Source of the DNA: Clostridia bacterium
GTDB taxonomy: Bacteria > Bacillota > Clostridia > Christensenellales > Aristaeellaceae
DNA length: 39,643 nucleotides
Reading direction: 5' to 3'
NCBI GenBank assembly: GCA_024404245.1
Contig: JAKSQH010000011.1
Location: forward strand, 1-39,643
Positions 1,633-36,314 of this stretch are shown here, in pieces (the first letter of the stretch is position 1; every line of letters begins with the position of its first letter). The notes beneath the pieces were generated by a model. The model was not told where the DNA came from. It searched no databases and worked only from the letters and a program-made list of their open reading frames with translations. Both the position numbers and the translations under genes were made by a program.

Positions 1633-4600
1633 TTACTGTACAGTCAGAGTCACCACTTTGGTTATTACGCTTGCTCCGGTGGAATCTTTGATGATGCAGC
1701 GGTACTGGTAACCGTTCTTCGTTACAGTTGCGGCTACAGTCAGCGTGGCTGTCTTGTTACCTGTAGCGGGTGAATTGCTCCATTCCGCTGTGGCGTTTTT
1801 TCTGTACTGCCACTGGTAGGTCAATCCGTTTCCGCCGGCGGTAACAGTGAATACCGCGTCCGTTCCAGCCGCTACAGCCTTATCGGCAGGCTGGGATTTT
1901 ATTTTCAACGGTACTGATACTGTCAGTGTTGCGGCATCAGAGGTCACGGAAGCACCGTATTTATCTTTCACAATACAGTGATACTGGTATCCATTCTTGG
2001 TTGCGGTTACGGCTACAGTCAATGAAGCCGTTGTGCATCCGGTGGCGGTTGTGTTCTTCCATGTTGCTGTGGATGAAGTTCTGTATTGCCACTGATAGGT
2101 CAAGCCGGCCCCGTTTGCCACCACAGTAAAGGTAGCGTTCGTTCCGTTGTCCGCTGTTTTCGAAACAGGCTGTGTTTTGATGCTCAGCGCAGGACCGACA
2201 GTCAGTGTCGCCGCGTTTGAGTTGATCGTAATGCCATACTGATCCTTAACAACACAACGATATTGGTATCCGTTACGGTTTGTTGTTCCGGATATGCTCA
2301 AGGTAGCTGTTTTGTTTCCGGTCGCTGGAGAGTTCTGCCAGGCATCACTTTTTGATATTCTGTACTGCCATTGGTACTTCACCCCGTCACCTTTGGCCAC
2401 CACGGTGAATTCTACATTCGTTCCGTTGCTGACAGACTTGCTCACGGGCTGAGTGGTGATTGCCAAACTGCTGACCGTCAGTGTCGCCACATTTGAAATG
2501 AGTTCATCCCCATCCTTGTTTCTGACTACACAACGGTACTTGTATCCGTTACGGTCCGCTGTCGCGGATACAGACAATGAAGCGGTGTTACTGCCGGTTG
2601 CGGGAGAGTTTTTCCATGCGCCTTCCGGTTGCATATATTGCCATTGATATGTAAGTTCAGTACCCTTTGCAGTCACTGTAAATTCGACCGTTGTTCCCTT
2701 TCTGACCGTCTGACTTGCAGGCTGTTTGGTTATGGAAAGGTCCATGACATCCAGTGTCGCCGCCGCCGAATTGATTTTTTCTCCGGCACTGTTTGTCAGC
2801 ACACAGCGGTATTGATAGCCGTCTTTATCCATGCTTGCCGTAATTGTCACCGTTGCTGTGGTATTCCCGGTCGCGGGAGAATTTTTCCACGCGGTGTCCG
2901 TTTTTTTGTATTGCCACTGATACTGCAGCCCGTCACCCTTGGCTGTTACTGTGAATTTTATGCTTGCACCGTTACTTACTTTCTGGCTCACAGGCTGCTT
3001 TGTAATAGTGATGTTTATGACTTTCAAGGTGACTGCTTTTGATGTGATCTGCTTTCCGTCATTGCCGGTGATCACACATCTGTACTGGTATCCGCTCCGG
3101 TCCAGTGTCGCGGGGATACTCAAAGTGGCAGTGGTACTACCGGTCGCGGGAGAGTTTTTCCAGTCTGTTCCCGGGATCTTGCACTGCCATTGATACTTAA
3201 CATCATCTCCGAGAACAGTTACGGTGAAATTGGCCTTGCCTCCGCAGCCAACAGTTTGGCCGGTCGGTTGTTCTGTAATCATAGCACTGACTACTGTAAG
3301 CGTGGCAGAATCAGAGATCAGTTCCTTTTTCTTTTGATTCATTACAACGCAGCGATACTGGTATCCGTCTCGGTCCGTTGTCACAGGAACAGTTAATGTT
3401 GCGGTGGTATTACCTGTAGCAGAAGTGTTTTGCCATGTTGCACCCGGTTTCTTGTACTGCCACTGATATGTCAGCCCGTCTCCGGTTGTTTCAACCGAAA
3501 ATTTTGTTTTTGTACCCGGAACTGCCTTTATACTTTGCGGCTGGCTCTTAATGGTAAAGTCAATAATCTCATATCCCTGTTCATTTGCCCATTGATACGC
3601 ATAACTGCCTTTGCTGCAGCATATTGTTGTGTTTAACGAGAATGCGTTACTACCAATGGATGTTACACTGTCTGGAATGGTTACTATTTTTAAAGCATTA
3701 CATCCAATAAACGCAGAGGAACCAATCAAATATACACTACTCGGAATTACTATGGACGTCAAAGAACTACAAGCATAGAAAGCATTGCCTCCAATAATGC
3801 TTACACTTCTAGGAATCTTAACAGATTTCAATGAACTACAGCCACTAAAAGTAGAGGTTTCAATGTCACATACACCGTCTGGGATCGTCACGGATGTCAA
3901 AGCGCTACAGTTACAAAAAGCACTATAACCAATGCTACAAACACTATTGGGAATCATCATGGATGTCAAGGAACTGCAACCGGAAAAAGTGTAATCGCCA
4001 ATGGTTGCTATACTGTTCGGAATCGTTACAGATGTCAACGATCTGCAACCGGCGAAGGCCTGACTGCCAAGAGTTGTTACACTGTCAGGAATCGTTACAG
4101 ACGACAAAGAAATGCAACCGGAAAAAGCATTATTACCAATGCTGGTTACACTTTCCGGAATCGTTATTGATGTCATCTCTTCGAAATAGCTAAAGGCGTC
4201 AGAACTTATGCTGGTTACATTTTTCAGCACGATTTTCCTAATAGCTGAGCGGTATCTTGTCCAAGGTGCATCAGTATTAGTTGGTACTTTTGTTCCCGAA
4301 ATAGTCAGTACTAAATCTTTACTGATACTCCAGGTCAATGTTCCATATTTCCCACCGGGTAAATCATCAAGCAGCAGACAAACATTCCCGTTCTCTTGCG
4401 CAAAATTTACAGCCGCTGACCCTGATGTCGTATATATTACACATTTGTAAGGAAACGCATTCTTTCCGAAGTTAATTACAGTATTTGGAATGGTCACGGT
4501 TTTTAGGGAATTGCAAATACTAAATGCAGACTCGCCAATACTGGTTACACTGTTTGGGATGGTCACAGATTTTAGCGAAACGCATTCAAAAAAAGTATAC

Positions 4601-5118
4601 TCAGCGATATTTGCTACGTTATTAGGAATCGTTACAGATGTCATTGACCTACACTCGTAAAATGCAGCAAATCCAATACTTGATACACTATCTGGTATTG
4701 TCACAGAAGTCATTGAACTACAACCATAAAAAGCATAATAGCCAATATCGGTTACACTACTTGGAATCGTCATGGATGTTAATGCACTGCATCCGTAAAA
4801 AGCAGAATCACCAATACTAGATACACTATTTGGTATTGTCACGGTTGTTAACGAACTGCAATTAAAAAAAGCATTTTTATCAATGGTTGCTACACCATCT
4901 TCTATAATTACTTTCTTGATAGCTTCCTTGTAATTGCTCCAGGAATCTATACCATATGTTAATGATTTAGATATCGTCAATGTCCCGGCATCGTCTAGTA
5001 TCCAAGCGTTATTAAGATAAACCCCACTTGCAATTTCAGCCTGTGCACTAATAATCAGCGCCAGCATTGTACACAGCACAACAATCAAGCACAGTAAAAG
5101 TTTCATAACTCTCTTCAT
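1633..5118 (-). CDS. Secreted BspA-type leucine-rich-repeat protein with seven Ig-like repeats
   Basis: The 1161-residue product has a lipid-rich signal peptide (MKRVMKLLLCLIVV through about AQA at 27). Two blocks of 23-residue BspA/LRR_5 repeats follow, seven in about residues 68-225 and nine in about 295-505, each with the pattern TSVTIPxSVxSIGxxAFxxC. A non-repeat linker separates the blocks. Seven Ig-like repeats of about 90 residues fill 519-1161, each with YQWQ, NSPATG and GYQYRCV landmarks. There is no LPXTG, SLH or C-terminal membrane segment, so attachment to the cell is not explained. The start at 5116-5118 has GGAGGTG at 5126-5132. BspA-type LRR proteins are known adhesins or host-interaction proteins, and the Ig repeats probably act as a stalk; both roles are inferred. 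Lengths of tandem repeats in such genes often vary between strains. It is a single gene with its own promoter. Confidence 0.9.
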   Translation of the reverse strand: MKRVMKLLLCLIVVLCTMLALIISAQAEIASGVYLNNAWILDDAGTLTISKSLTYGIDSWSNYKEAIKKVIIEDGVATIDKNAFFNCSSLTTVTIPNSVSSIGDSAFYGCSALTSMTIPSSVTDIGYYAFYGCSSMTSVTIPDSVSSIGFAAFYECRSMTSVTIPNNVANIAEYTFFECVSLKSVTIPNSVTSIGESAFSICNSLKTVTIPNTVINFGKNAFPYKCVIYTTSGSAAVNFAQENGNVCLLLDDLPGGKYGTLTWSISKDLVLTISGTKVPTNTDAPWTRYRSAIRKIVLKNVTSISSDAFSYFEEMTSITIPESVTSIGNNAFSGCISLSSVTIPDSVTTLGSQAFAGCRSLTSVTIPNSIATIGDYTFSGCSSLTSMMIPNSVCSIGYSAFCNCSALTSVTIPDGVCDIETSTFSGCSSLKSVKIPRSVSIIGGNAFYACSSLTSIVIPSSVYLIGSSAFIGCNALKIVTIPDSVTSIGSNAFSLNTTICCSKGSYAYQWANEQGYEIIDFTIKSQPQSIKAVPGTKTKFSVETTGDGLTYQWQYKKPGATWQNTSATGNTTATLTVPVTTDRDGYQYRCVVMNQKKKELISDSATLTVVSAMITEQPTGQTVGCGGKANFTVTVLGDDVKYQWQCKIPGTDWKNSPATGSTTATLSIPATLDRSGYQYRCVITGNDGKQITSKAVTLKVINITITKQPVSQKVSNGASIKFTVTAKGDGLQYQWQYKKTDTAWKNSPATGNTTATVTITASMDKDGYQYRCVLTNSAGEKINSAAATLDVMDLSITKQPASQTVRKGTTVEFTVTAKGTELTYQWQYMQPEGAWKNSPATGSNTASLSVSATADRNGYKYRCVVRNKDGDELISNVATLTVSSLAITTQPVSKSVSNGTNVEFTVVAKGDGVKYQWQYRISKSDAWQNSPATGNKTATLSISGTTNRNGYQYRCVVKDQYGITINSNAATLTVGPALSIKTQPVSKTADNGTNATFTVVANGAGLTYQWQYRTSSTATWKNTTATGCTTASLTVAVTATKNGYQYHCIVKDKYGASVTSDAATLTVSVPLKIKSQPADKAVAAGTDAVFTVTAGGNGLTYQWQYRKNATAEWSNSPATGNKTATLTVAATVTKNGYQYRCIIKDSTGASVITKVVTLTVQ
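1636..3560 (-). repeat. Seven tandem Ig-like coding repeats (about 270 nt each)
   Basis: Seven consecutive copies of a 90-residue module encode the C-terminal half of the LRR protein. The copies keep the W and C positions of an Ig fold (YQWQ and YRCV) but differ elsewhere, so they are older duplications, not a recent expansion. They are coding repeats, not a CRISPR or a mobile element. Confidence 0.85.
3640..4925 (-). repeat. Sixteen BspA-type LRR coding repeats (69-nt period), in two blocks
   Basis: The 23-residue motif gives a 69-base period in the DNA. The blocks are separated by a linker that contains an LTWSIS/LTISG sequence, which echoes the LTISK sequence before the first block, so a unit of 'cap plus LRR block' appears to have been duplicated. 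Base composition is more AT-rich here than in the Ig half. Confidence 0.8.
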
Positions 5119-19171: not shown

Positions 19172-20545
19172 ATGAGTCGCGTTATGGACAGGATCCGCGA
19201 TAACCGGGCCGCGCTGCTGACCGGTTTTTTCCGCGTTCTGCTGTACCTTTTCCTGCTCGTCGCCTTCTTCTTTTTCATGTCCATCAACAACCCGTTTCTG
19301 CTGCACATCAACCGCACCATGGCCACCACGCTGCTGATCTACATCGTGCTGTCGGTCATGACGCACGCTGTTTACGGCGGGTATGACGTCGGCCGCAGAA
19401 AGTCAAAACCCGTTATCTCCTCCATGATCGGCGCGGCCGTGCTTACGGACGCGGTTACCTTCGTGCAGGTGCATATCATGAATATGCACGATGAAGGCAC
19501 ATGGTTCTCCACCGTCCTGCCGGACCTGCTGTGGCTCCTCGCCTGCTTCGTCACGCAGGCGCTGATGATTATCCTGATGGTGCGCGTCGGCAACACGCTG
19601 TATTTTCACCTGACCCCGCCGCGCAAGTGCCTGCTGATTCTCAGCACGCCCGCCGCGCATGACGCGCTCCACAGCAAAATCGGCCGGTATAAGCTGCAGT
19701 GGAATATCACGGACACGGTGCTGTACAACGTGCCGAACCTTGAGGAGCAGATCCGTGACGCGGAAGTTGTTTTTCTGGACAGGCTGCCCGCGCACGCGGA
19801 GCCGACGATACTCGGCATGTGCTACCGTTACGGGCGCGATGTGCTGTGTCTGGCGCAGCTGAGCGATATCATGCTGAGCAATGCCCGCACGGCCATCATT
19901 GATGACGCGCTTTTCCTGGAGATGAACAATACCCGCGCCACATTCAACCAGCGGCTGCTCAAGCGCGCGGGCGATATTTTCCTGTCCGGTCTGGCGATTC
20001 TGCTCACCCTGCCGCTTATGGCGGTCATCGCGGTGGCCATTCTGCTGGAGGACGGGCATAACCCCATCTTCACGCAGGAAAGGCTCACGCTGGACGGGCG
20101 CGCCTTCCGCATCCGCAAGTTCCGCACCATGACGCCGGACGCGTCCGTTGCCCCGGTGCAGTCCTCCATCACCACGGATGATCCGCGCATCACAAAGGTC
20201 GGCAGGGTTCTCCGCCGTTGGCGGCTGGATGAACTGCCCCAGTTTTTCAATATCTTCATCGGGGAGATGTCCCTGGTCGGTCCGCGGCCGGAGATGCTTT
20301 CCAATATCCGGCAGTATAAAGAGGAACTGCCCGATTTTGTCTACCGTGAGCGCATGAAGGCCGGCCTTACCGGCTACGCGCAGATTGAGGGGCGCTACAA
20401 CACCACGCCGGATGATAAGCTGATGATGGACCTGCAGTACATCGAAGGCTTCTCCGTGTGGCTGGATATCAAGCTGATTCTGCGCACCTTCACCGTTTTC
20501 ACAAAGAAGGACTCCACTCAGGGCTTCTCCGGCAAACAGGGTTAA
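19172..20545 (+). CDS. Polyprenyl-phosphate sugar-1-phosphate transferase (exopolysaccharide initiator)
   Basis: This 457-residue integral membrane protein is of the WbaP/WcaJ type. Such enzymes move a sugar-1-phosphate from a UDP-sugar to undecaprenyl phosphate, the first step of capsule, exopolysaccharide or glycan assembly. About four N-terminal membrane segments (residues 10-110) are followed by a soluble nucleotide-fold region. A fifth hydrophobic stretch (about 270-290) leads into the catalytic 'bacterial sugar transferase' domain, from KRAGDIF at 264 to the end. Its landmarks are IRKFRTM, a basic RRWRLDELPQ segment and SLVGPRPE with the catalytic-type motif. GGGAGG lies before ATG 19172. 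galE follows and may supply the UDP-sugar; the actual sugar is not determined by sequence. Confidence 0.92.
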   Translation: MSRVMDRIRDNRAALLTGFFRVLLYLFLLVAFFFFMSINNPFLLHINRTMATTLLIYIVLSVMTHAVYGGYDVGRRKSKPVISSMIGAAVLTDAVTFVQVHIMNMHDEGTWFSTVLPDLLWLLACFVTQALMIILMVRVGNTLYFHLTPPRKCLLILSTPAAHDALHSKIGRYKLQWNITDTVLYNVPNLEEQIRDAEVVFLDRLPAHAEPTILGMCYRYGRDVLCLAQLSDIMLSNARTAIIDDALFLEMNNTRATFNQRLLKRAGDIFLSGLAILLTLPLMAVIAVAILLEDGHNPIFTQERLTLDGRAFRIRKFRTMTPDASVAPVQSSITTDDPRITKVGRVLRRWRLDELPQFFNIFIGEMSLVGPRPEMLSNIRQYKEELPDFVYRERMKAGLTGYAQIEGRYNTTPDDKLMMDLQYIEGFSVWLDIKLILRTFTVFTKKDSTQGFSGKQG

Positions 20546-20602
20546 GGAAGCCGCCGGGTTCGCGATATTTGCTTCATCATGATTCAGGGAGGGTTATCTG
20601 CC

Positions 20603-21619
20603 ATGAACATCCTGCTTACCGGCGGTGCCGGTTTCATCGGATCACACACCTGTGTTGAGCTCATCCGCGCCGGTCACAAGCCGGTGATTGTCGATAATTA
20701 CAGTAACAGCTGCCCCGAGGCCGTACGCCGGGTGGAAAAGATCACCGGCGTTACCGTGCCCGTGTATGAGGCGAATGTCTGTGACCGCGCGGCCATGGAC
20801 CGGATTTTCGCGGAAAACAGCTTTGACGCCGTGATTCACTTCGCCGGTCTGAAGGCCGTCGGCGAAAGCGTAAGAAAGCCGCTGGAATACTACCGCAACA
20901 ATCTGGATTCCACGCTCACCCTGTGTGAAACCATGCGCGCGCACGGGGTCAAGCGCCTTGTTTTCTCCTCCTCCGCCACGGTTTACGGCGAGCAGCCCGA
21001 ATGCCCCTACAGGGAGGATATGGTTTCCACCGGCTGTTCCAACCCGTACGGCTGGACCAAGTATATGATCGAGCGCATTCTGGAAAGCGTATGCGTCGCG
21101 GATCCGGAATGGAGCGTTGTGCTGCTGCGCTATTTCAACCCCATCGGCGCGGATGAGTCCGGGCTGATCGGTGAAAACCCGAACGGCATCCCGAACAACC
21201 TCATGCCCTATATCGCCAAGGTTGCCGTCGGCGAGCTGGAAAAGCTCCACGTTTTCGGCAATGACTATCCCACGCCGGACGGCACCGGTGTGCGCGATTA
21301 TATCCACATCTCGGATCTGGCGCGCGGTCATCTGTGCGCCTGCGACTACGCCGCCGTTCACACCGGCTGCGAGATCGTGAACCTCGGCACCGGCAAGGGC
21401 GTTTCCGTGCTGGAGCTGGTACACGCGTTTGAAAAGGTCAACGGCATCCGGATTCCCTATCAAATCGACGCCCGCCGCCCCGGCGATATCGCCGAAAACT
21501 ACGCCGACCCTTCCAAAGCGCTGAAGCTCTTCGGCTGGAAAGCGGAGAAAAACATTGACGATATGTGCCGCGACACCTGGCATTTCCAGAAGAATAACCC
21601 CCACGGCTACGAAGGCTAA
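20603..21619 (+). CDS. galE: UDP-glucose 4-epimerase
   Basis: This 338-residue NAD-dependent enzyme interconverts UDP-glucose and UDP-galactose (or the N-acetyl forms). The Rossmann motif GGAGFIGSH lies at 7-15, the catalytic set S124 with Y149 and K153 in SSSATVYGE and YGWTKYMIE, and RDYIHISDLARGH further on, as in GalE. ATG 20603 is chosen because GGGAGGG at 20587-20593 precedes it and the length then equals the family norm; an upstream in-frame ATG at 20579 would add eight residues. It sits 57 bases after the sugar transferase, consistent with supply of precursors for polysaccharide synthesis. Confidence 0.95.
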   Translation: MNILLTGGAGFIGSHTCVELIRAGHKPVIVDNYSNSCPEAVRRVEKITGVTVPVYEANVCDRAAMDRIFAENSFDAVIHFAGLKAVGESVRKPLEYYRNNLDSTLTLCETMRAHGVKRLVFSSSATVYGEQPECPYREDMVSTGCSNPYGWTKYMIERILESVCVADPEWSVVLLRYFNPIGADESGLIGENPNGIPNNLMPYIAKVAVGELEKLHVFGNDYPTPDGTGVRDYIHISDLARGHLCACDYAAVHTGCEIVNLGTGKGVSVLELVHAFEKVNGIRIPYQIDARRPGDIAENYADPSKALKLFGWKAEKNIDDMCRDTWHFQKNNPHGYEG

Positions 21620-21631
21620 GGAGGCACCATA

Positions 21632-24600
21632 TTGAAATCCTATCTGCTGACTGTCGGCTCCTTCGGTAGCCGGCTTCTGTCCACGCTGATGAACGTAACC
21701 GTTTCCGGTACCGCCGCTTCCTTTCCGGAAGCGGTGGTTCTGCATATCGGTGATGAACCGCTGCCGGAAAGCACGCTTGATTTCAGTGAGGACCTGAACC
21801 TCGTGCGCGGTCAGTTCGGCGACGCGTGTCCCGGGCCTTATTTCGCGACCGGTTTTTCAATCTCCTCATGGCGGACGGAGCTGCCCAACCGGCAGGAGCT
21901 TACGGCGTCCGATCCGCAGAGCGACCTGCTGCTCACGGCGCTGCGCGGCCGCGGGCGTGACGGCGGCTTCGGCAATGACGCCGGCACCACCGGCCTGGCG
22001 ATGTCCGCGCTGCTGTCCGATACCGATCACCTGCCGGGCGCCTTTCAGGCGTTTTTCGGCGGCATCCGCGAAACGCTGGACGCGGGAGAGCATGTCCGCG
22101 TCGCTCTTGTGTGCGATCTGGCCGCGCAGGCGGACGCGGGGCTGGCCGCGGCCGTGGCTGTGGCTTTGCGTTCCCTGTGCCCGGGTGACGGGCTGACAAT
22201 CGCTTTCGCGCTCACCTTTGAGGATGTGAACGCCATCCGTGACGGGCATAACGATATTCCGCAGGAGATCCTGAAGGACTGGATCGCCCGCCGCCTGATC
22301 CGCGTTTCGGATAACCGGCCGACCCGCGGCGCGGACGCCGCGTATCTCGTATCCCTGCCGGCCGGGCTGGTATCCGGTGAAAACGCGTTCGCGCTGAGCC
22401 GGTTTGAGCTCGCGCGCGCCGTATGCGGTTTCTTTGCCGGTGAACGTGAGCCGTCCGCCGGGCTGCATCTCTGCTTTGTGCCCGCTGTGTATACGTGGAA
22501 GGCGCTCGGCTCCCGCGGCACGGACACGGCGGTTTTCCTTACCTCCGCCGTGTGGGCGCTTACGGATCTGCTGCCCGCAATGCAGGATAACATCAACCGC
22601 CCCGCGATCCTGCGCTCCATCACACCGGTATCCCGCGGCGCGCTGTTCCGCCGGCTGCTGCGCAACACGCGTGATGACGCGCTCACCGATACCGCGCCGC
22701 TGACCCGCGTGCTGGAAACCGTGCTGCACGGCTGGTACACACTCATCTGCGGCATGCCGGATCTGCTGCGTGACGCGGAAAAAACGGTTGCCGACTGGAA
22801 TACCGCTGTCGCCGTATGCGGCAAAGCCGTTACGCTCGGCGCCGCCTATGACGTGCTGAAAGCAAAGGCCGAAGCCACCGGTCTGGATAAGGTTGAGCCT
22901 GTTCACCGTGTTTCCATGACGGACACGGAGGAGGAAGCCGCCCGCCGCAGAATCGATGACGCGGGCAGCGAGCTGAATCAGGTGCTCGCGGAACGGAAAG
23001 CCGTGTTTGACAAAAGCGGCGCGGTGATCGCGCGCCTCGCGCTGGAGGACTGCCTCCGCAAGTGCGAAAAGGCGCTGTCCTCCGCGCGTGAAAAGCTGTC
23101 CCGCGCGGCCGGTGACACGGCTGACAGCAAAGATGAATACTGGCGGCTTGAGGAGCGCGTTATCCGGCTGAAGGCGGCTGTAGCCCGCAGCCGTGAGGAT
23201 CTTGCGCGGTTCTGCGTCTTCCCCGGCCTTGCCGCCCTTCCCTCGCCGCGTATTTCCCTCAAGGAGCCGTATTCCGGTCAGTTGCTTGCCCCGGAGGCGG
23301 TTTCCGCGCTCGGTGAGATCGCGGATCACCCGGGCGATCCGGACAGCTTCCGCGCGCTTCGCGACGGTTTGCCCGGGCTGATTGCCGGCAGAACCGGCAG
23401 TGACGGCAAACAACTGCTCAAAAACCTGCTCGGCGCGTGCGTCGAAACCGGCAACCCCGCGGCGGATCTGATCAACGGCATCATCAAAGTGATCCGTGAG
23501 GATTTCAGGCTTTCGCCTTTCGCGCAGACGCTTTCCCTGCCCGATATCACACTGGGGCCGGACCTTACCCCGGGCGAGATATACCCGCTTCTTTCCGCGC
23601 TGCCGGGGCGCCTGATCACGGACAGCCCGGCGGACGACACTGCCGGTATCCGCGGTGTCCTGGCCATGCTGCTGCTGCGCCAGTACCGCAAAACCGGCTG
23701 GGCGGACGCGTCTCTGTCCGTTGTCGCCATCCGTCCGGATCAGTCCGTGCTGAACAGTGTATGGCTGGATTCCGTTGACGCGAAGCGCGGCTGGATTGTG
23801 TCACTGACGGACGGAACCGCGCGCTGGCCTTTCGCCGTTGTGCTGCCCGGCCGCAGGCTGATTCCGGCAAAGCTCTCCGCGCGCCATGCCGCGCTGATTC
23901 CCGCCTGGGTCACCTGGTTTGACCCGGCGCTGCTCACTTTCCGCGATCCGTGCCATCACCTGTGTGAGCAGGACAGGCTGCTGCTCACGCAGCAGCTGAC
24001 ACGGCTGAGAACGCTGCTGTCGGATCCCGCCGCGAAGCCGTTTGCCGATCTGCTTTCCCAGTTTCACCGGGATATCACCGTTGCCGGGAAGCAGAACGCG
24101 GACGAAAGCGATCCGCTGCTGCGGCTGAGGCTCACCGCGGCGTTCGGTCTGCTGCCGCTCAATGCCTATTCCGACCTCACCCGCACCGTGAATGAATATG
24201 ACCGCGCCATCACGCAGGACAGGCTGTGCGCCTGTCTGGCGGATAAGCCGGCCGTGGAGCCCCCGGCCTTCACCTTTGAGGATGAGATCATCTACGCGCG
24301 CGGCGACCGCCCGTTCGCGCGGGAAAGCCGGATTCATCTGCTGGAAAGCACCAATCACCATGATGAAAAAGAAATACTGGAATCGCTGAAGAGTGACTGC
24401 GAGCGGCTGTTTGACGCCTCCGACGACTACCGCGATACCCTGCAGCGGGAGCTGACCGCCCTGCTCGCGCGTTATCCGGACGCGCGTGAGGAGGATACCG
24501 AAACCGCAACGCGCCTGCTGAACGGCGCCGCGGAACCGCTTCCCGCCGAAACGGCCGAGCTGACCGCGCCGTGGGATCCCGCCGATCCGGCGATCCTGAC

Positions 24601-26773
24601 CATTGTCAATGAGTGCGTCGGAGCCGAAAACTCCGCTGTTTTCCTCTCCCCCTTCACCGATAAGCTGGCGGTGATCCCGCGGCAGGGCGGGCAGATCCTC
24701 GGTGATCGCCTGATGTCGGCCATGTGCCGCGTGTCCGCCGTGCAGGGAGAAAACCCCGATACGTCGATTCCGGATGACGCGGTGCTTCCCCCTGTTCTGC
24801 CCGCCGCCATGGATCAGCTGTGCGCGCTCGGCCTGATGCGGGAGGGCACGCTGTCATTTACCCGCGTGGCGGAAGGCATCCGCGCCTGCCTCACCGTGTT
24901 CGGCCGCTTTGAGCTGCGCCTGTACCGGGTGTATACGGATACCGAGCTGCTGCTGATGTACGCGAAGGACATCCCCACCGTGGCGGTATGGCCGTCCGTG
25001 CCTTTCGCGGAGAATGACTGGCACGCGTACTTTGTATACGCGAAACTGCCGGAAGGGTATGATATCGCCTCCCCGGGTACGGTACACACCGTGACGGATA
25101 ACCGCCATATCCTGCGCTCCGCGAAGTTCCCGAAGTATCTCTGCCTGTCAAAGGACGGGGCGGTCGCCGCGTCACTGCCGCATCTGCTGCCCGCGCCCGA
25201 TCTTCCCGCCGCGGGAAACATCACGGCGTGTGTTGACTTCGGCACTTCCGCTTCCGCGGTTGTGTTCACAGGGCCGGAAGGCACGGGCCCGCTCTCCGGC
25301 GGCACGCTGGTGCGCACGCTGCTGCATCATCCGTCCGCCTCGGCGGATCTGCTCCGGCGGGAGTTTATCCCGCAGCTGCCGTTCTCCGCGCTGCTGCCCT
25401 CCACAGTCTGCATTTTCCGCAATGAAGCGAACGCGCAGCCGGTTCCCTTCGCTGACGGAATCATCCTCATGCCCTCCGGCATGGATGACCTTGCCGCGAT
25501 GAATGACCTGCATGTGTATACTTCCCTCACCTGGGATCCCGATAAGAGCCGCGCGGCGTCGCTGTATCTGCATCAGCTGATGCTGATGACCGCGCTGCAG
25601 GCGCGCGTGCGCGGCGCTTCCACGCTCACATGGCGCTTTTCCGTGCCGGACGCGATGACGGATTCCGCGCGCGCCGGGCTTTGCAAACGGATCACACAGC
25701 TCGCGCAGACCGTTTCGGAGGAAAGCGGGCTTCCCGGCGCGGCCTTCCTGCCGCAGGTTGCCTTCCTTTCCGGCAGTGACGCGCTCGGCGCCTACTTCCG
25801 CTTCTGCGCGCCGGAGGAAGTGCGCGGCACGTTCCTTACGATGGATATCGGGTCCGATACGGCTGACTTTTCCTTCTTCCTGCGCGGCTCGGACACCGCT
25901 GCCGTGACCGTTCATCTGCCGCTCGGCATCCACTATATGCTGCTGCCTTTCCTGCTGGGCGAACCTCTGCTGCCGGAGCGGGATCTGCAGGCCGCCGCCT
26001 CCCCCGCGCTGCGTGAAGCGCTGCATACACTGAAGCGCAGCGTAACGGACGCGAGAACGGATCCCTCCGGTTTCCGCTGCGCTCGCCTGGCGCTGGATAC
26101 CTTTATCGCGGATCACGGCAATGAAGCCGCGGGCATTATGTTCAATTCCATCTGCGCGGGCGTGCCCACCTGCTGCGGCGCGCTGTTGCTGCTTTACCTC
26201 TCGTTCCTGTTCACAATCTCGGGGCTGATCACAAAGCAGATCGCCGATGATCCCCGTGTGAATGATCTGCTGCCGAACAGCATGCCGGTCTGCCTCGCGG
26301 GGCGCGGCGGAAAGCTCCTTGATCTTGTGCCGGACAGCGAACGCGCCGCGCTGTGGCGCTTCCAGTCCCTTGTGAGGAACGACCGCGTGAACGCGCCTTT
26401 CCTGCTGCGCTCCGCGGAGCCGAAGCTGGAGCTCGCCGTCGGGCTGAGCACTGTGGAATCGCCTTCCGCCCTTGTGCCGTCCGGCCCGCGGATGAACAGT
26501 TTCCTGCCGGTTGACCCGGCCGCGCTGCTCATCAACTTCCTCATTCTGTATCAGCGTGAATTCCCGGCCGAGGCACAGCTCCTTTTCCCCGGCTGGTTCG
26601 TGGATGACCCGCGCGCGCCGCTCACAACCCCCGCGGAGAACGCCGTGCACTCCGCGATCGCCGGTGCCTTCGGAAACGGCAATGACGTATATGACTGTCT
26701 GGCGGACAGCTTTGCCACGCTCGCCGAACAGATTGACCTGCACAAGAGAGGTGAACATCCTTGGAACGCCTGA
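21632..26773 (+). CDS. Giant 1713-residue protein with C-terminal actin/Hsp70-type ATPase domain
   Basis: I do not recognise a named family. TTG 21632 is the start, with AAGGAGG directly upstream and 12 bases after galE. The C-terminal third has the three ATPase motifs of the actin/Hsp70 superfamily: VDFGTSASAV (D1202), MDIGSDTADF (D1405) and LAGRGGKLLDL (G1557-G1560). Residues about 429-525 form a coiled coil (charged heptads, EEEAARRR through EDLARFC). The N-terminus has VGSFGSRLL at 8-16, GNDAGTTG at 114-121 and a VRVALVCDLAAQ strand at 155, then helix and strand. That order resembles tubulin/FtsZ-like (Tubulin_2) proteins, but without a clean GGGTGTG loop, so this is a tentative inference. 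No signal peptide or membrane segment is present. The stop overlaps the next gene by 13 bases. A scaffold or force-generating role tied to envelope polysaccharide is a guess from its neighbours. Confidence 0.85.
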   Translation: MKSYLLTVGSFGSRLLSTLMNVTVSGTAASFPEAVVLHIGDEPLPESTLDFSEDLNLVRGQFGDACPGPYFATGFSISSWRTELPNRQELTASDPQSDLLLTALRGRGRDGGFGNDAGTTGLAMSALLSDTDHLPGAFQAFFGGIRETLDAGEHVRVALVCDLAAQADAGLAAAVAVALRSLCPGDGLTIAFALTFEDVNAIRDGHNDIPQEILKDWIARRLIRVSDNRPTRGADAAYLVSLPAGLVSGENAFALSRFELARAVCGFFAGEREPSAGLHLCFVPAVYTWKALGSRGTDTAVFLTSAVWALTDLLPAMQDNINRPAILRSITPVSRGALFRRLLRNTRDDALTDTAPLTRVLETVLHGWYTLICGMPDLLRDAEKTVADWNTAVAVCGKAVTLGAAYDVLKAKAEATGLDKVEPVHRVSMTDTEEEAARRRIDDAGSELNQVLAERKAVFDKSGAVIARLALEDCLRKCEKALSSAREKLSRAAGDTADSKDEYWRLEERVIRLKAAVARSREDLARFCVFPGLAALPSPRISLKEPYSGQLLAPEAVSALGEIADHPGDPDSFRALRDGLPGLIAGRTGSDGKQLLKNLLGACVETGNPAADLINGIIKVIREDFRLSPFAQTLSLPDITLGPDLTPGEIYPLLSALPGRLITDSPADDTAGIRGVLAMLLLRQYRKTGWADASLSVVAIRPDQSVLNSVWLDSVDAKRGWIVSLTDGTARWPFAVVLPGRRLIPAKLSARHAALIPAWVTWFDPALLTFRDPCHHLCEQDRLLLTQQLTRLRTLLSDPAAKPFADLLSQFHRDITVAGKQNADESDPLLRLRLTAAFGLLPLNAYSDLTRTVNEYDRAITQDRLCACLADKPAVEPPAFTFEDEIIYARGDRPFARESRIHLLESTNHHDEKEILESLKSDCERLFDASDDYRDTLQRELTALLARYPDAREEDTETATRLLNGAAEPLPAETAELTAPWDPADPAILTIVNECVGAENSAVFLSPFTDKLAVIPRQGGQILGDRLMSAMCRVSAVQGENPDTSIPDDAVLPPVLPAAMDQLCALGLMREGTLSFTRVAEGIRACLTVFGRFELRLYRVYTDTELLLMYAKDIPTVAVWPSVPFAENDWHAYFVYAKLPEGYDIASPGTVHTVTDNRHILRSAKFPKYLCLSKDGAVAASLPHLLPAPDLPAAGNITACVDFGTSASAVVFTGPEGTGPLSGGTLVRTLLHHPSASADLLRREFIPQLPFSALLPSTVCIFRNEANAQPVPFADGIILMPSGMDDLAAMNDLHVYTSLTWDPDKSRAASLYLHQLMLMTALQARVRGASTLTWRFSVPDAMTDSARAGLCKRITQLAQTVSEESGLPGAAFLPQVAFLSGSDALGAYFRFCAPEEVRGTFLTMDIGSDTADFSFFLRGSDTAAVTVHLPLGIHYMLLPFLLGEPLLPERDLQAAASPALREALHTLKRSVTDARTDPSGFRCARLALDTFIADHGNEAAGIMFNSICAGVPTCCGALLLLYLSFLFTISGLITKQIADDPRVNDLLPNSMPVCLAGRGGKLLDLVPDSERAALWRFQSLVRNDRVNAPFLLRSAEPKLELAVGLSTVESPSALVPSGPRMNSFLPVDPAALLINFLILYQREFPAEAQLLFPGWFVDDPRAPLTTPAENAVHSAIAGAFGNGNDVYDCLADSFATLAEQIDLHKRGEHPWNA

Positions 26774-27519
26774 CCTCCCTGAAAAACCCGAAAGTCCTGT
26801 TCTGGCGTTCGCTCGCGGACAGGAAGGCCCGCAAGGAAAGCGGCTGCTTTATTGTGGAAGGCTGGAAAATGGTCACAGAAGCCCTTGCTTCCGCCTTCGC
26901 GATTGAGGCCGTGCTGGTCCGTGAGGATATGGAAAGCGAGATTTCCCCGGAGCTTACGCGTTATCCGGTTTATCTGCTGCCCGCTGCCGTGTTTGACGCG
27001 GTATGCGATACCAGAACACCGCAGGGAATCGCCGCCGTGCTCCGCTTTACCCGCACCGAGGCAAGCGGTAGCAGGCTCATCGCGCTGGATGACGTGCAGG
27101 ACCCCGGAAACGTGGGCACCATTATCCGTACGGCGGACGCCGCCGGCTTTACCGGTGTGCTCCTCGGCAGCGCGTGCGCCGATGTGTTTTCGCCGAAGGT
27201 GCTTCGCGCCACCATGGGCAGCATCTTCCGCATGGGTATTTCCCGCCCGGATGATCTGGCCGCGGAACTCGGCCGCCTCCGCGAATCCGGCTTTTCCGTG
27301 CTTTCCTCACAGCTGGACGGAACCCCGTTCTATGAGCGTACCGGCGTGTCGGACCGTTTCTGCCTGATTATCGGCAATGAAGGGAACGGCGTGTCACCGG
27401 CCGTGAGCGCGCAGGCGACGCACCGGCTGAAGCTGCCGATGCGCGGCGGCGCGGAATCGCTGAACGCGGCGATCGCGGCCGGCATTATGATGTATGATCT
27501 CACACGTGATCTGGACTGA
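26761..27519 (+). CDS. SpoU/TrmH family RNA 2'-O-methyltransferase
   Basis: This 252-residue protein is a knotted SPOUT methyltransferase with an N-terminal RNA-binding region (FIVEGWKMV near 30-38) and the three family motifs: DPGNVGTIIRTADAAGF at 114-130, IIGNEGNGVS around 203-212 and a PMRGGAESLNAAIAAGIMMYDL-type end at 226-246 (key P, S, L, N, A). Such proteins methylate a ribose 2'-O in rRNA or tRNA; the target here is not clear (RlmB-like or TsnR/TrmH-like). TTG 26761 is the start, with GAGAGGTGA a few bases before. It overlaps the end of the giant protein gene by 13 bases, so translation is coupled. Confidence 0.92.
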   Translation: MERLTSLKNPKVLFWRSLADRKARKESGCFIVEGWKMVTEALASAFAIEAVLVREDMESEISPELTRYPVYLLPAAVFDAVCDTRTPQGIAAVLRFTRTEASGSRLIALDDVQDPGNVGTIIRTADAAGFTGVLLGSACADVFSPKVLRATMGSIFRMGISRPDDLAAELGRLRESGFSVLSSQLDGTPFYERTGVSDRFCLIIGNEGNGVSPAVSAQATHRLKLPMRGGAESLNAAIAAGIMMYDLTRDLD

Positions 27520-34868: not shown

Positions 34869-36188
34869 TCACTTGAATAAAGGGCATTCAAATCCGGGCA
34901 GATCAAAGGCGGGATCAAGCCGGTCGCGGTTGTATTGCAGAAAGAGATTGCCTTTCATAAGCGAAAAATCTGTTTCCGCTTCCGCCGGGTCCGCGCCGCG
35001 AAGATGCACATCGCAGTAGTCAAGGATCATTTTCATATCGGAGTTCAGGATCGCGTGACCGTCCGGGTGGATGATCATATTCTTCTGCTCCCCGCAGCCC
35101 AGCAGCTCCCATACCGGCTGGGATCCGAGCCAGGCAAGGCACTGGCCTTCGGTGTTGTTCCAGCCCTCTGAGGTAATGCCGGTCACCACAATCAGGTGCC
35201 GGTCCGGAGCGGCAGCCAGCGCGCAGAGCATATACTGCTCCACAGGGATCGATTCCGCGTCCGGAATCTTCCGGAAGTTTTCACAGAACCAGTATCCTTC
35301 GCCGCCCTGCAGGTTGGAAAGCGGCTCGTTGATGGAATCGTTTACCCAGCTTTCACTTCCGCCCAGAGAGGAAAGGTCGTATTCCTTGCCGTGGTTGTCC
35401 GTGCGGTAAACAGCCACACCGCCGGCACCGGAGCAGGACGGAACCGTAACACGGATGCGGGAGTCGTACGCGCCGGCAACCGCGGCGCTCTTTCCGTATC
35501 TGGATACGCCGGCAACGATGCAGCCGCGCGGATCAATTCCGAGTGCTTCACCCGCGCCGTTTTCCAGCGCGTCGATCACTTTGGACGCGCCCCATGCCCA
35601 GGCCGCCAGAACACCGGGAAAATCACCCGCTTCCCCGTCAAAAGGATACAGCCTGTAGAACGCGCCCGTATGTCGCTCGTTATCCGAAGCGACATCCGTC
35701 GGGATATAGGTGATGCCGGCATATCCGCGGGACGCGGCATATTTGCAGTTATCCGAGATGAACACGCCGCCGCCCCATGAAAAACCGTATTCCAGATAGC
35801 AGGGCCGGCCGCCTTCGGGCGCGGGTTCCTCCGGCAGATTGACAACAACGCTGAACGATGTTTCCTTTTCATCACGCGCGATATGGATCGTCAGCTTCTG
35901 TCCGGGCAGCTTTTCATGCGGAGCAATCTCCCATGTGACTGTCTCCGCGGACGGGTCCGGCATTTTCCCGTACATCCATACGGAATAAAGGTCCAGCAAT
36001 TCAGCGCGCCGAAGCGCCCAGTCCTCTGCCGTCCGCACCGGCATACCGTTTTCCAGCGTCATCAGCGGCGGCATTCCGTCCCGCTTCGGCAGTTCCTCCG
36101 GCGAGCGGACCGTATCCGCCTCCGCGACGGTACAGAATGACAATACAGCAACCAGCGCCAGAATCAAAAAGAGCAGATCACAATTCAT
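34869..36188 (-). CDS. Secreted CE15-like (glucuronoyl) esterase
   Basis: This 439-residue protein starts at ATG 36188 (GAGGTG just upstream) with a signal peptide MNCDLLFLILALVAVLSFC through about AEA. The alpha/beta-hydrolase core has AGVSRYGKSAAVAGAYDSRI, with nucleophile S229 in a GVSRxGK motif, SCSGAGGVAVYR downstream of it, and HPDGHAIL with H378 as probable catalytic His. These match CE15 4-O-methyl-glucuronoyl esterases, which cut the ester between lignin and glucuronoxylan. That suits a plant-fibre environment, though substrate use is not proven by sequence. A longer frame to 36302 lacks a ribosome site and is ignored. It is a single gene; no other xylan gene is next to it. Confidence 0.85.
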   Translation of the reverse strand: MNCDLLFLILALVAVLSFCTVAEADTVRSPEELPKRDGMPPLMTLENGMPVRTAEDWALRRAELLDLYSVWMYGKMPDPSAETVTWEIAPHEKLPGQKLTIHIARDEKETSFSVVVNLPEEPAPEGGRPCYLEYGFSWGGGVFISDNCKYAASRGYAGITYIPTDVASDNERHTGAFYRLYPFDGEAGDFPGVLAAWAWGASKVIDALENGAGEALGIDPRGCIVAGVSRYGKSAAVAGAYDSRIRVTVPSCSGAGGVAVYRTDNHGKEYDLSSLGGSESWVNDSINEPLSNLQGGEGYWFCENFRKIPDAESIPVEQYMLCALAAAPDRHLIVVTGITSEGWNNTEGQCLAWLGSQPVWELLGCGEQKNMIIHPDGHAILNSDMKMILDYCDVHLRGADPAEAETDFSLMKGNLFLQYNRDRLDPAFDLPGFECPLFK

Positions 36189-36314
36189 AAACGCACCTCT
36201 GAGTATATCATCACCCGGCAAACGGTTCCACCGGACCTTCATTGTGTCGCGCGGTTTCACTTCCGCGTTGGTGAACAGCTGATATGTGTCAGTCCGGAGC
36301 ATCTTTGCGGCACA

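Follow-up and report, generated by a model that had tools for sequence, protein, structure and literature searches.

A 1713-residue chain joining a probable degenerate tubulin-like domain to a predicted actin-type ATPase beside exopolysaccharide genes of a Clostridia bacterium

The window, the whole 39,643-nucleotide stretch of Clostridia bacterium DNA that was analysed, encodes a fused tubulin-like/actin-like protein of 1713 residues (positions 21,632–26,773, forward strand), as indicated by its open reading frame, profile searches, and comparison with split loci. The most far-reaching reading, which we consider on balance likely, is that the single chain combines a tubulin-superfamily domain devoid of GTPase loops with an actin-superfamily ATPase serving as the nucleotide switch, and that it stems from a so far unrecognised two-protein envelope module recruited to polysaccharide initiation. 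Labels such as L077 and G449 are our own handles for loci and genomes.

Results

Fused gene and its conservation

The open reading frame (21,632–26,773, +) has 1713 codons and begins with TTG, preceded by the Shine-Dalgarno sequence GGAGG (21,620–21,624, +). The galE gene ends at position 21,619, which leaves a gap of 12 bases, and the stop codon of the fusion lies 13 bases within the next open reading frame, that of a SpoU methylase, the longest form of which starts with TTG at 26,761. This agrees with the first-pass annotation of the sequence, which had the gene begin 12 bases after galE and overlap its downstream neighbour. TTG instead of ATG starts the longest open reading frame in six fused genes: those of the window (21,632), L002, L051, L052, L055, and L056.

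The full-length protein has three matches in Pfam at E ≤ 1, all of them below threshold, no match in NCBIfam, and two chance-level matches among PDB sequences. A copy with 86% identity is present in L002, and at least ten further genomes of the same genus carry the fused gene with 36–42% identity; the copy in G449 is interrupted by a contig end. Twelve of the 297 genomes of the order match the window protein. The count is 12 instead of 14 because the matches of L014 and L015 (597–701) were rejected, both being subtilase-LRR surface proteins. Of 200 genomes sampled from the family, 59 match, and loci were fetched for part of them. Two matches from this sample, G298:C27 and G428:C45, hold three TAG and four TGA codons, which might mean that they are pseudogenes, contain errors of assembly, or follow another genetic code.

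Calculated with a Nei-Gojobori script of our own, the dN/dS ratio between the window and L002 comes to 0.15 over the whole protein, 0.21 in residues 1–420, and 0.09 in residues 1191–1713. The gene is genuine and conserved and evolves under purifying selection, and from these ratios every part of the fused protein is kept by selection.

Neighbouring genes in relatives correspond to the two halves

The protein is one chain in the genus of the window, and two adjacent co-directional genes in other genera. In other genera, almost every best match starts at residue 642 or beyond; with an iterated profile, the N-terminal part was located there as a gene of its own immediately upstream. The N and C genes are adjacent and co-directional in all 31 split genomes in which both are visible, with their longest open reading frames overlapping or standing at most 157 bases apart. 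L077, which shares only the phylum with the window, provides a 32nd adjacent pair; only the C part is visible in L013, the locus of which is short. Since relatives carry both halves as neighbouring genes, the fusion is seen directly, and the earlier proposal of one chain joining two halves is upheld by these 31 pairs and L077. That two neighbouring genes were fused is, from the comparison of loci, virtually beyond doubt. The ten fused rows form one clade with an SH-aLRT value of 100 in a tree computed by a quick method from 42 sequences of the C part; it contains several long branches and was rooted on L077 by our choice.

Predicted actin-type ATPase of the C-terminal half

The ATPase domain proper spans approximately residues 1191–1713 (25,202–26,770, +) and is preceded by a third region, residues 641–1190. 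Conserved columns, profile comparisons, and the Pfam match of a relative assign it to the actin/MreB/FtsA/Hsp70 type. Alignment located three motif regions: phosphate 1 (25,217–25,267, +; VDFGTSAS with D1202), phosphate 2 (25,823–25,885, +; MDIGSDTADFS with D1405), and adenosine (26,276–26,323, +; CLAGRGGKL with G1557 and G1559). Among 43 sequences, conservation reaches at least 90% in the columns of D1202, G1204, D1405, G1407, and G1559 and is complete for G1557. The first-pass annotation had placed the ATPase motifs at D1202, D1405, and the G1557 region, and there they were found, in intact order and in near-invariant columns. All six ATPase residues (DGDGGG) are present in 10 of 10 fused proteins, 8 of 11 galE-linked split proteins, 8 of 8 lipoprotein-type proteins, and 12 of 14 other rows. 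The three exceptions in the galE-linked split set are C proteins without one or more of the residues; L049 has lost five of the six. Shortly before the adenosine motif, residues 1515–1533 (26,174–26,230) are very hydrophobic, with a mean hydropathy of 2.16, and may form a buried helix or a membrane contact.

An alignment of the ATPase domain (A3, 16 rows) was compared with reference families by hhalign. The FtsZ, FtsA, and MreB seeds were chosen by eye and then confirmed against annotated Escherichia coli K-12 proteins, and the hhalign E-values are those of single comparisons. A3 matched FtsA with a probability of 94 (E 1.5e-7, 177 columns, score 65), a clean MreB set consisting of six MreB rows and E. 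coli MreB with a probability of 93 (E 3.4e-7, 84 columns, score 59.5; reversed control 14.9), and DnaK with a probability of 61 (E 7.9e-5, score 46). Unrelated and reversed controls for A3 scored at most 20.8. The alignment of fused C parts only gave a probability of 66 with FtsA (E 5.6e-5, 65 columns) and of 33 with clean MreB (E 4.5e-4). When A3 was used as a profile against the PDB, 39 chains were returned at E ≤ 10, 37 of which are exopolyphosphatase, MreB, actin-like, FtsA, or Hsp70 chains; the two from outside the superfamily are 3lw8 (IpgB2) and 3a6m (GrpE). A profile of the whole C part (A2) matched 4 of 398 sampled genomes of the phylum: the window's own, G721, and two with FtsA genes, which were confirmed as such against E. 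coli FtsA and one of which adjoins FtsZ.

The resemblance to MreB is strong at the profile level, and the C protein of L077 locally clears the Pfam MreB_Mbl cut-off (28.4 against 27 bits over 65 residues), whereas the window protein does not match the Pfam MreB model (PF06723) and has about 550 residues preceding its ATPase domain. SrfB and Hsp70 share the motifs of the ATPase superfamily; the SrfB profile matched neither the window protein at E ≤ 1 nor any of the 43 C members at E ≤ 0.1. The assignment of the C-terminal half to the actin/Hsp70 superfamily, which the first-pass annotation had made from the motifs, is strongly reinforced: at the level of sequence it is firm because the FtsA, PDB, and Pfam results carry it, and the half is almost certainly actin-like.

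It is conceivable, although unlikely, that the ATPase is an Hsp70-like or reactivase-like chaperone for a membrane transferase complex, with the N-terminal part docking substrates and with no filament or scaffold involved. A3 does match DnaK, Hsp70 chains are among its PDB matches, and the Ppx-GppA and EutA models are weakly matched by 6 and 1 of the 43 C members, respectively. However, FtsA and MreB match better than DnaK, and the consistent partner of the C part is a probable tubulin relative.

Probable tubulin-like N-terminal half without GTP-binding loops

Residues 1–420 (21,632–22,891, +; boundary approximate) form a putative degenerate tubulin-like domain of Tubulin_2/FtsZl1 derivation, which is homologous to the split N genes. 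The loop names T1 and T4 broadly follow the usage for the tubulin superfamily in PMC2875224. The N proteins of lipoprotein-type relatives start like GCYVLAIGGTGNK and carry GSIFGGTGAS further on, corresponding to the T1 and T4 loops. According to the alignment, GSFG replaces GGTG in the former T1 loop of the window protein (residues 6–15; 21,647–21,676, +), and the former T4 loop (residues 158–178; 22,103–22,165, +) has CDLAAQADAG, without GGTG. The phosphate loop is thus degenerate, as had been noted earlier. Each of the two GTP-binding loops is absent from all 11 fused proteins; the loops remain in 1 of 11 galE-linked split proteins and 8 of 8 lipoprotein-type proteins. On the tree of the C part, the T4 state requires at least two changes.

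The N-terminus of the window protein matched no family at E ≤ 0.05, and the link to tubulin comes from its relatives. Split N proteins were scored against Tubulin_2 in sets of 10 and 4 (L042 in both) together with L077, and L040 alone passes the cut-off, with 29.9 against 27 bits over residues 8–238, a stretch that holds both loops. L066 (26.9) and L039 (26.6) miss the cut-off by less than half a bit, and L077 reaches 25.3. At E ≤ 0.05, Tubulin_2 is matched by 11 and Tubulin by 7 of 39 N members. The profile of the whole N set aligned with FtsZ over 118 columns with a score of 35 and with Tubulin_2 with a score of 26.5, other targets scoring at most 20.2; the hhalign probabilities are low: for FtsZ, 16 with the whole N set, 12 with split proteins only, and 10 with a focused N alignment (A4), and for Tubulin_2, 1 to 7. 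The fused-only N alignment matched neither FtsZ (score 14.7) nor Tubulin_2 (15.7). Hence the earlier reading of a tubulin-type N-terminus stands by way of relatives with GTP loops and of the alignment of the whole set with FtsZ, but the window sequence and the fused set, taken alone, gave no such match.

The low probabilities with FtsZ and Tubulin_2 would also be expected if the N-terminal half were another glycine-rich nucleotide fold resembling Tubulin_2 by convergence of its loops only. A4 scored 24.7 with DnaK, against 30.5 with FtsZ, and its PDB search is headed by a lipocalin, with tubulin only sixth at E 1.5. Nevertheless, such an origin is improbable: the Tubulin_2 match of L040 includes both loops, the FtsZ match extends over 118 columns, FtsZ 4b45 is listed with E 0.047 in the PDB search with the whole N profile, where a designed protein ranks ahead of it with E 4.8e-5, and clean MreB gives A4 only 14.9. 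We regard a tubulin derivation of the N-terminal half as probable, at good confidence; its support comes from relatives and is much weaker than that for the actin-like half. In the galE-linked branch, this half may mostly have become a non-GTPase structural or docking domain.

Coiled coil and middle region

The tubulin-like domain is followed by a coiled-coil-like region at residues 428–525 (22,913–23,206, +), clearest at 456–525, which is indicated by heptad periodicity and by coiled-coil chains among the PDB profile matches. According to a simple test of our own design, used in place of a trained predictor, heptad periodicity exceeds that of shuffled sequences (p ≤ 0.05, few Pro/Gly) in 6 of 239 windows of the test, all inside 428–525. 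Test windows starting at residues 435, 442, and 449 fail, with p values of 0.125, 0.825, and 0.24. Therefore, of the coiled coil previously placed at 429–525, the solid part runs from about 456 to 525.

The middle region (residues 641–1190; 23,552–25,201, +) belongs to the C gene in split relatives, as seen in 35 aligned sequences, and matches no PDB sequence at E ≤ 5. An 896-residue protein at L047:8087–10777 consists of a tubulin-like part with intact loops and about 300 residues of the middle region; it lacks the ATPase, from which the middle region can thus be separated.

Gene neighbourhood

Upstream of the fused gene in the window are a polyprenyl glycosylphosphotransferase gene of exopolysaccharide initiation (19,172–20,545, +; Bac_transf 2.6e-58; NCBIfam TIGR03025 EPS_sugtrans passed with 299 against 295.55 bits) and galE, of the UDP-glucose 4-epimerase type (20,579–21,619, +; Epimerase 9.5e-55). 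The SpoU-type rRNA methylase gene (26,761–27,519, +), with its overlap of 13 bases, is the downstream neighbour in all nine fused loci examined. Elsewhere in the window, 1636–5118 (−) encodes a surface-type protein of 1161 residues that has both BspA leucine-rich repeats and immunoglobulin-like domains, and the product of 34,872–36,302 (−) matches PF22244, a model of fungal glucuronyl esterase.

Two gene contexts recur: lipoprotein, tubulin-like, actin-like; and sugar transferase, (galU), galE, tubulin-like, actin-like. In 17 of the 33 loci examined, the tubulin-like part is preceded on the same strand by a galE homologue, at most 60 bases away in 12 of them and furthest, 873 bases, in L055. 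The glycosylphosphotransferase gene accompanies galE in 16 of these 17 loci and a galU-like gene in 12; galU is absent there in the window and L002, and L059 is cut by a contig end. Eight loci have a lipoprotein gene in place of galE, six of these with a small transmembrane gene detected by profile, and L077 has a similar lipoprotein and transmembrane gene by inspection. Seven have neither galE nor lipoprotein: the fused L051, L053, and L054, and L046, L047, L048, and L061, of which L048 and L061 are near contig ends. Six of the nine fused loci thus keep galE. The link to polysaccharide genes drawn in the first-pass annotation consequently applies to about half of the loci, and not to the others, including three of the nine fused ones. 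If galE and lipoprotein are treated as two states, the tree requires one change, and four if "neither" counts as a third state; the co-occurrence of galE linkage with loop loss catches the eye, but it amounts to a single event and is without statistical weight.

Inspection by eye shows a lipobox in the secreted lipoprotein partner, some members of which have a D-x-T-x-S-M-like (MIDAS-like) motif; its hhalign score with two vWA proteins is 22.3, against 23.8 for controls, which lends no support to a vWA identity. No vWA match was found among the four immediate neighbours scanned in the window. A role in a defence system was rejected, with no PADLOC family matched at E ≤ 0.1 by eight proteins. 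A gene near L046 looked Wzz-like from its sequence; it had no PDB match, and the identification was not used.

The gene might merely travel with galE and the transferase gene in a stable neighbourhood, without joint function. Three of the nine fused loci and L046 are without galE nearby, and the gene for SpoU, a plain rRNA methylase, is even steadier downstream of the fused genes. However, this is rather improbable given that the order transferase, (galU), galE, N, C recurs in genera whose C parts are just 16–29% identical to that of the window. UgtP and OpgH link UDP-glucose to FtsZ. The adjacency of a tubulin relative to galU and galE would also fit a UDP-sugar sensor that ties sugar-nucleotide supply to cell size, as UgtP and OpgH do through FtsZ, in place of a polysaccharide scaffold, but this is very unlikely, as the window protein matches no sugar-nucleotide-binding family and the genome has its own FtsZ with an adjacent FtsA gene. 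Effects of UgtP and OpgH on cell size are described in PMC3723540 and PMC5889556.

Discussion

Relation to known systems

The FtsZ-FtsA pair likewise places a tubulin-like and an actin-like partner side by side, and in profile comparisons the C-terminal half has FtsA among its best matches. The pair described here differs in that the tubulin-like gene comes first, that it is fused in one genus, and that the window's genome, which is 65% complete, has a separate FtsZ and two matches to the FtsA model, one directly upstream of FtsZ. Because of these genes, ordinary division is not a likely task of the fused protein.

The FtsZl1/Tubulin_2 (PF13809) systems resemble the present one in their tubulin-type N-terminus, in the glycine-rich loops (seen here in split relatives), in the coiled coil that follows, and in operons with predicted envelope proteins, here those of lipoprotein-type loci. 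They differ from it by the actin-like ATPase partner found here, and the window protein differs further by its lost loops and fused halves. Makarova and Koonin 2010 (PMC2875224) name vWA, GTPase, kinase, and OmpA proteins as partners of FtsZl1, describe a coiled coil behind its tubulin domain, and give the role of the system as a prediction only; a term search of the main text found no Hsp70, MreB, or FtsA. Six Tubulin_2 loci, from 13 genomes with a match, contained no match at E 0.05 to the C, FtsA, DnaK, or mixed MreB profiles, the last of which combines MreB rows with DnaK and FtsA rows. One Tubulin_2 operon (L132:5665–13393) consists of genes for a vWA protein, a Tubulin_2 protein, and a 788-residue protein without Pfam match at E ≤ 0.05, and L137:1056–4334 has two tandem genes (496 and 548 residues) at its Tubulin_2 matches, in a locus without actin-like profile match. 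Neither a tubulin-actin fusion nor a Tubulin_2 protein with an actin-like partner is described among the literature matches listed, which cover open-licence papers. As judged from sequence, what appears to be new is a system of Tubulin_2 derivation whose partner is actin-like, the two being fused and the GTP loops lost.

Proposed role

Our best explanation as a whole, to which we give slightly less than even confidence, is that the chain arose when two adjacent genes of a cytoskeleton-like, envelope-associated module were fused, and that it has the role of an ATP-switched scaffold. The ancestral module would have paired a protein of the Tubulin_2/FtsZl1 kind with an actin/MreB/FtsA-like ATPase possessing a large middle region. 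In the lipoprotein-linked form, both subunits would bind nucleotide and be paired on the inner face of the membrane, like FtsZ and FtsA. In the branch linked to the sugar transferase, galU, and galE, the tubulin partner would mostly have lost its GTP loops, probably serving as a structural arm, and the main switch would lie in the actin-like half, which would bind and hydrolyse ATP. In one genus, the tubulin partner would then have been welded onto the ATPase. The most likely task of the ATP-switched scaffold would be to place or gate the glycosylphosphotransferase and its UDP-sugar supply at the inner membrane; given the recurrence of the neighbourhood, exopolysaccharide initiation may be organised or gated by the ATPase cycle. 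A polysaccharide scaffold function is possible but somewhat doubtful. Architecture and neighbourhood are what the sequences show; that the protein polymerises, touches the membrane, and acts in polysaccharide initiation is inferred.

In the systems known to us, relatives of tubulin and of actin operate as individual proteins. A fused chain holds them in fixed proportion and contact and therefore indicates that the two partners cooperate. Those split relatives whose loops are intact would be tractable pairs for studying the joint action of tubulin-like and actin-like proteins in processes other than cell division, and the fused form, lacking GTP loops, raises the question of what use a cell makes of a tubulin unable to bind GTP. 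The proposed module offers a hypothesis for FtsZl1-type systems and for how the initiation of sugar polymers may be placed in the cell.
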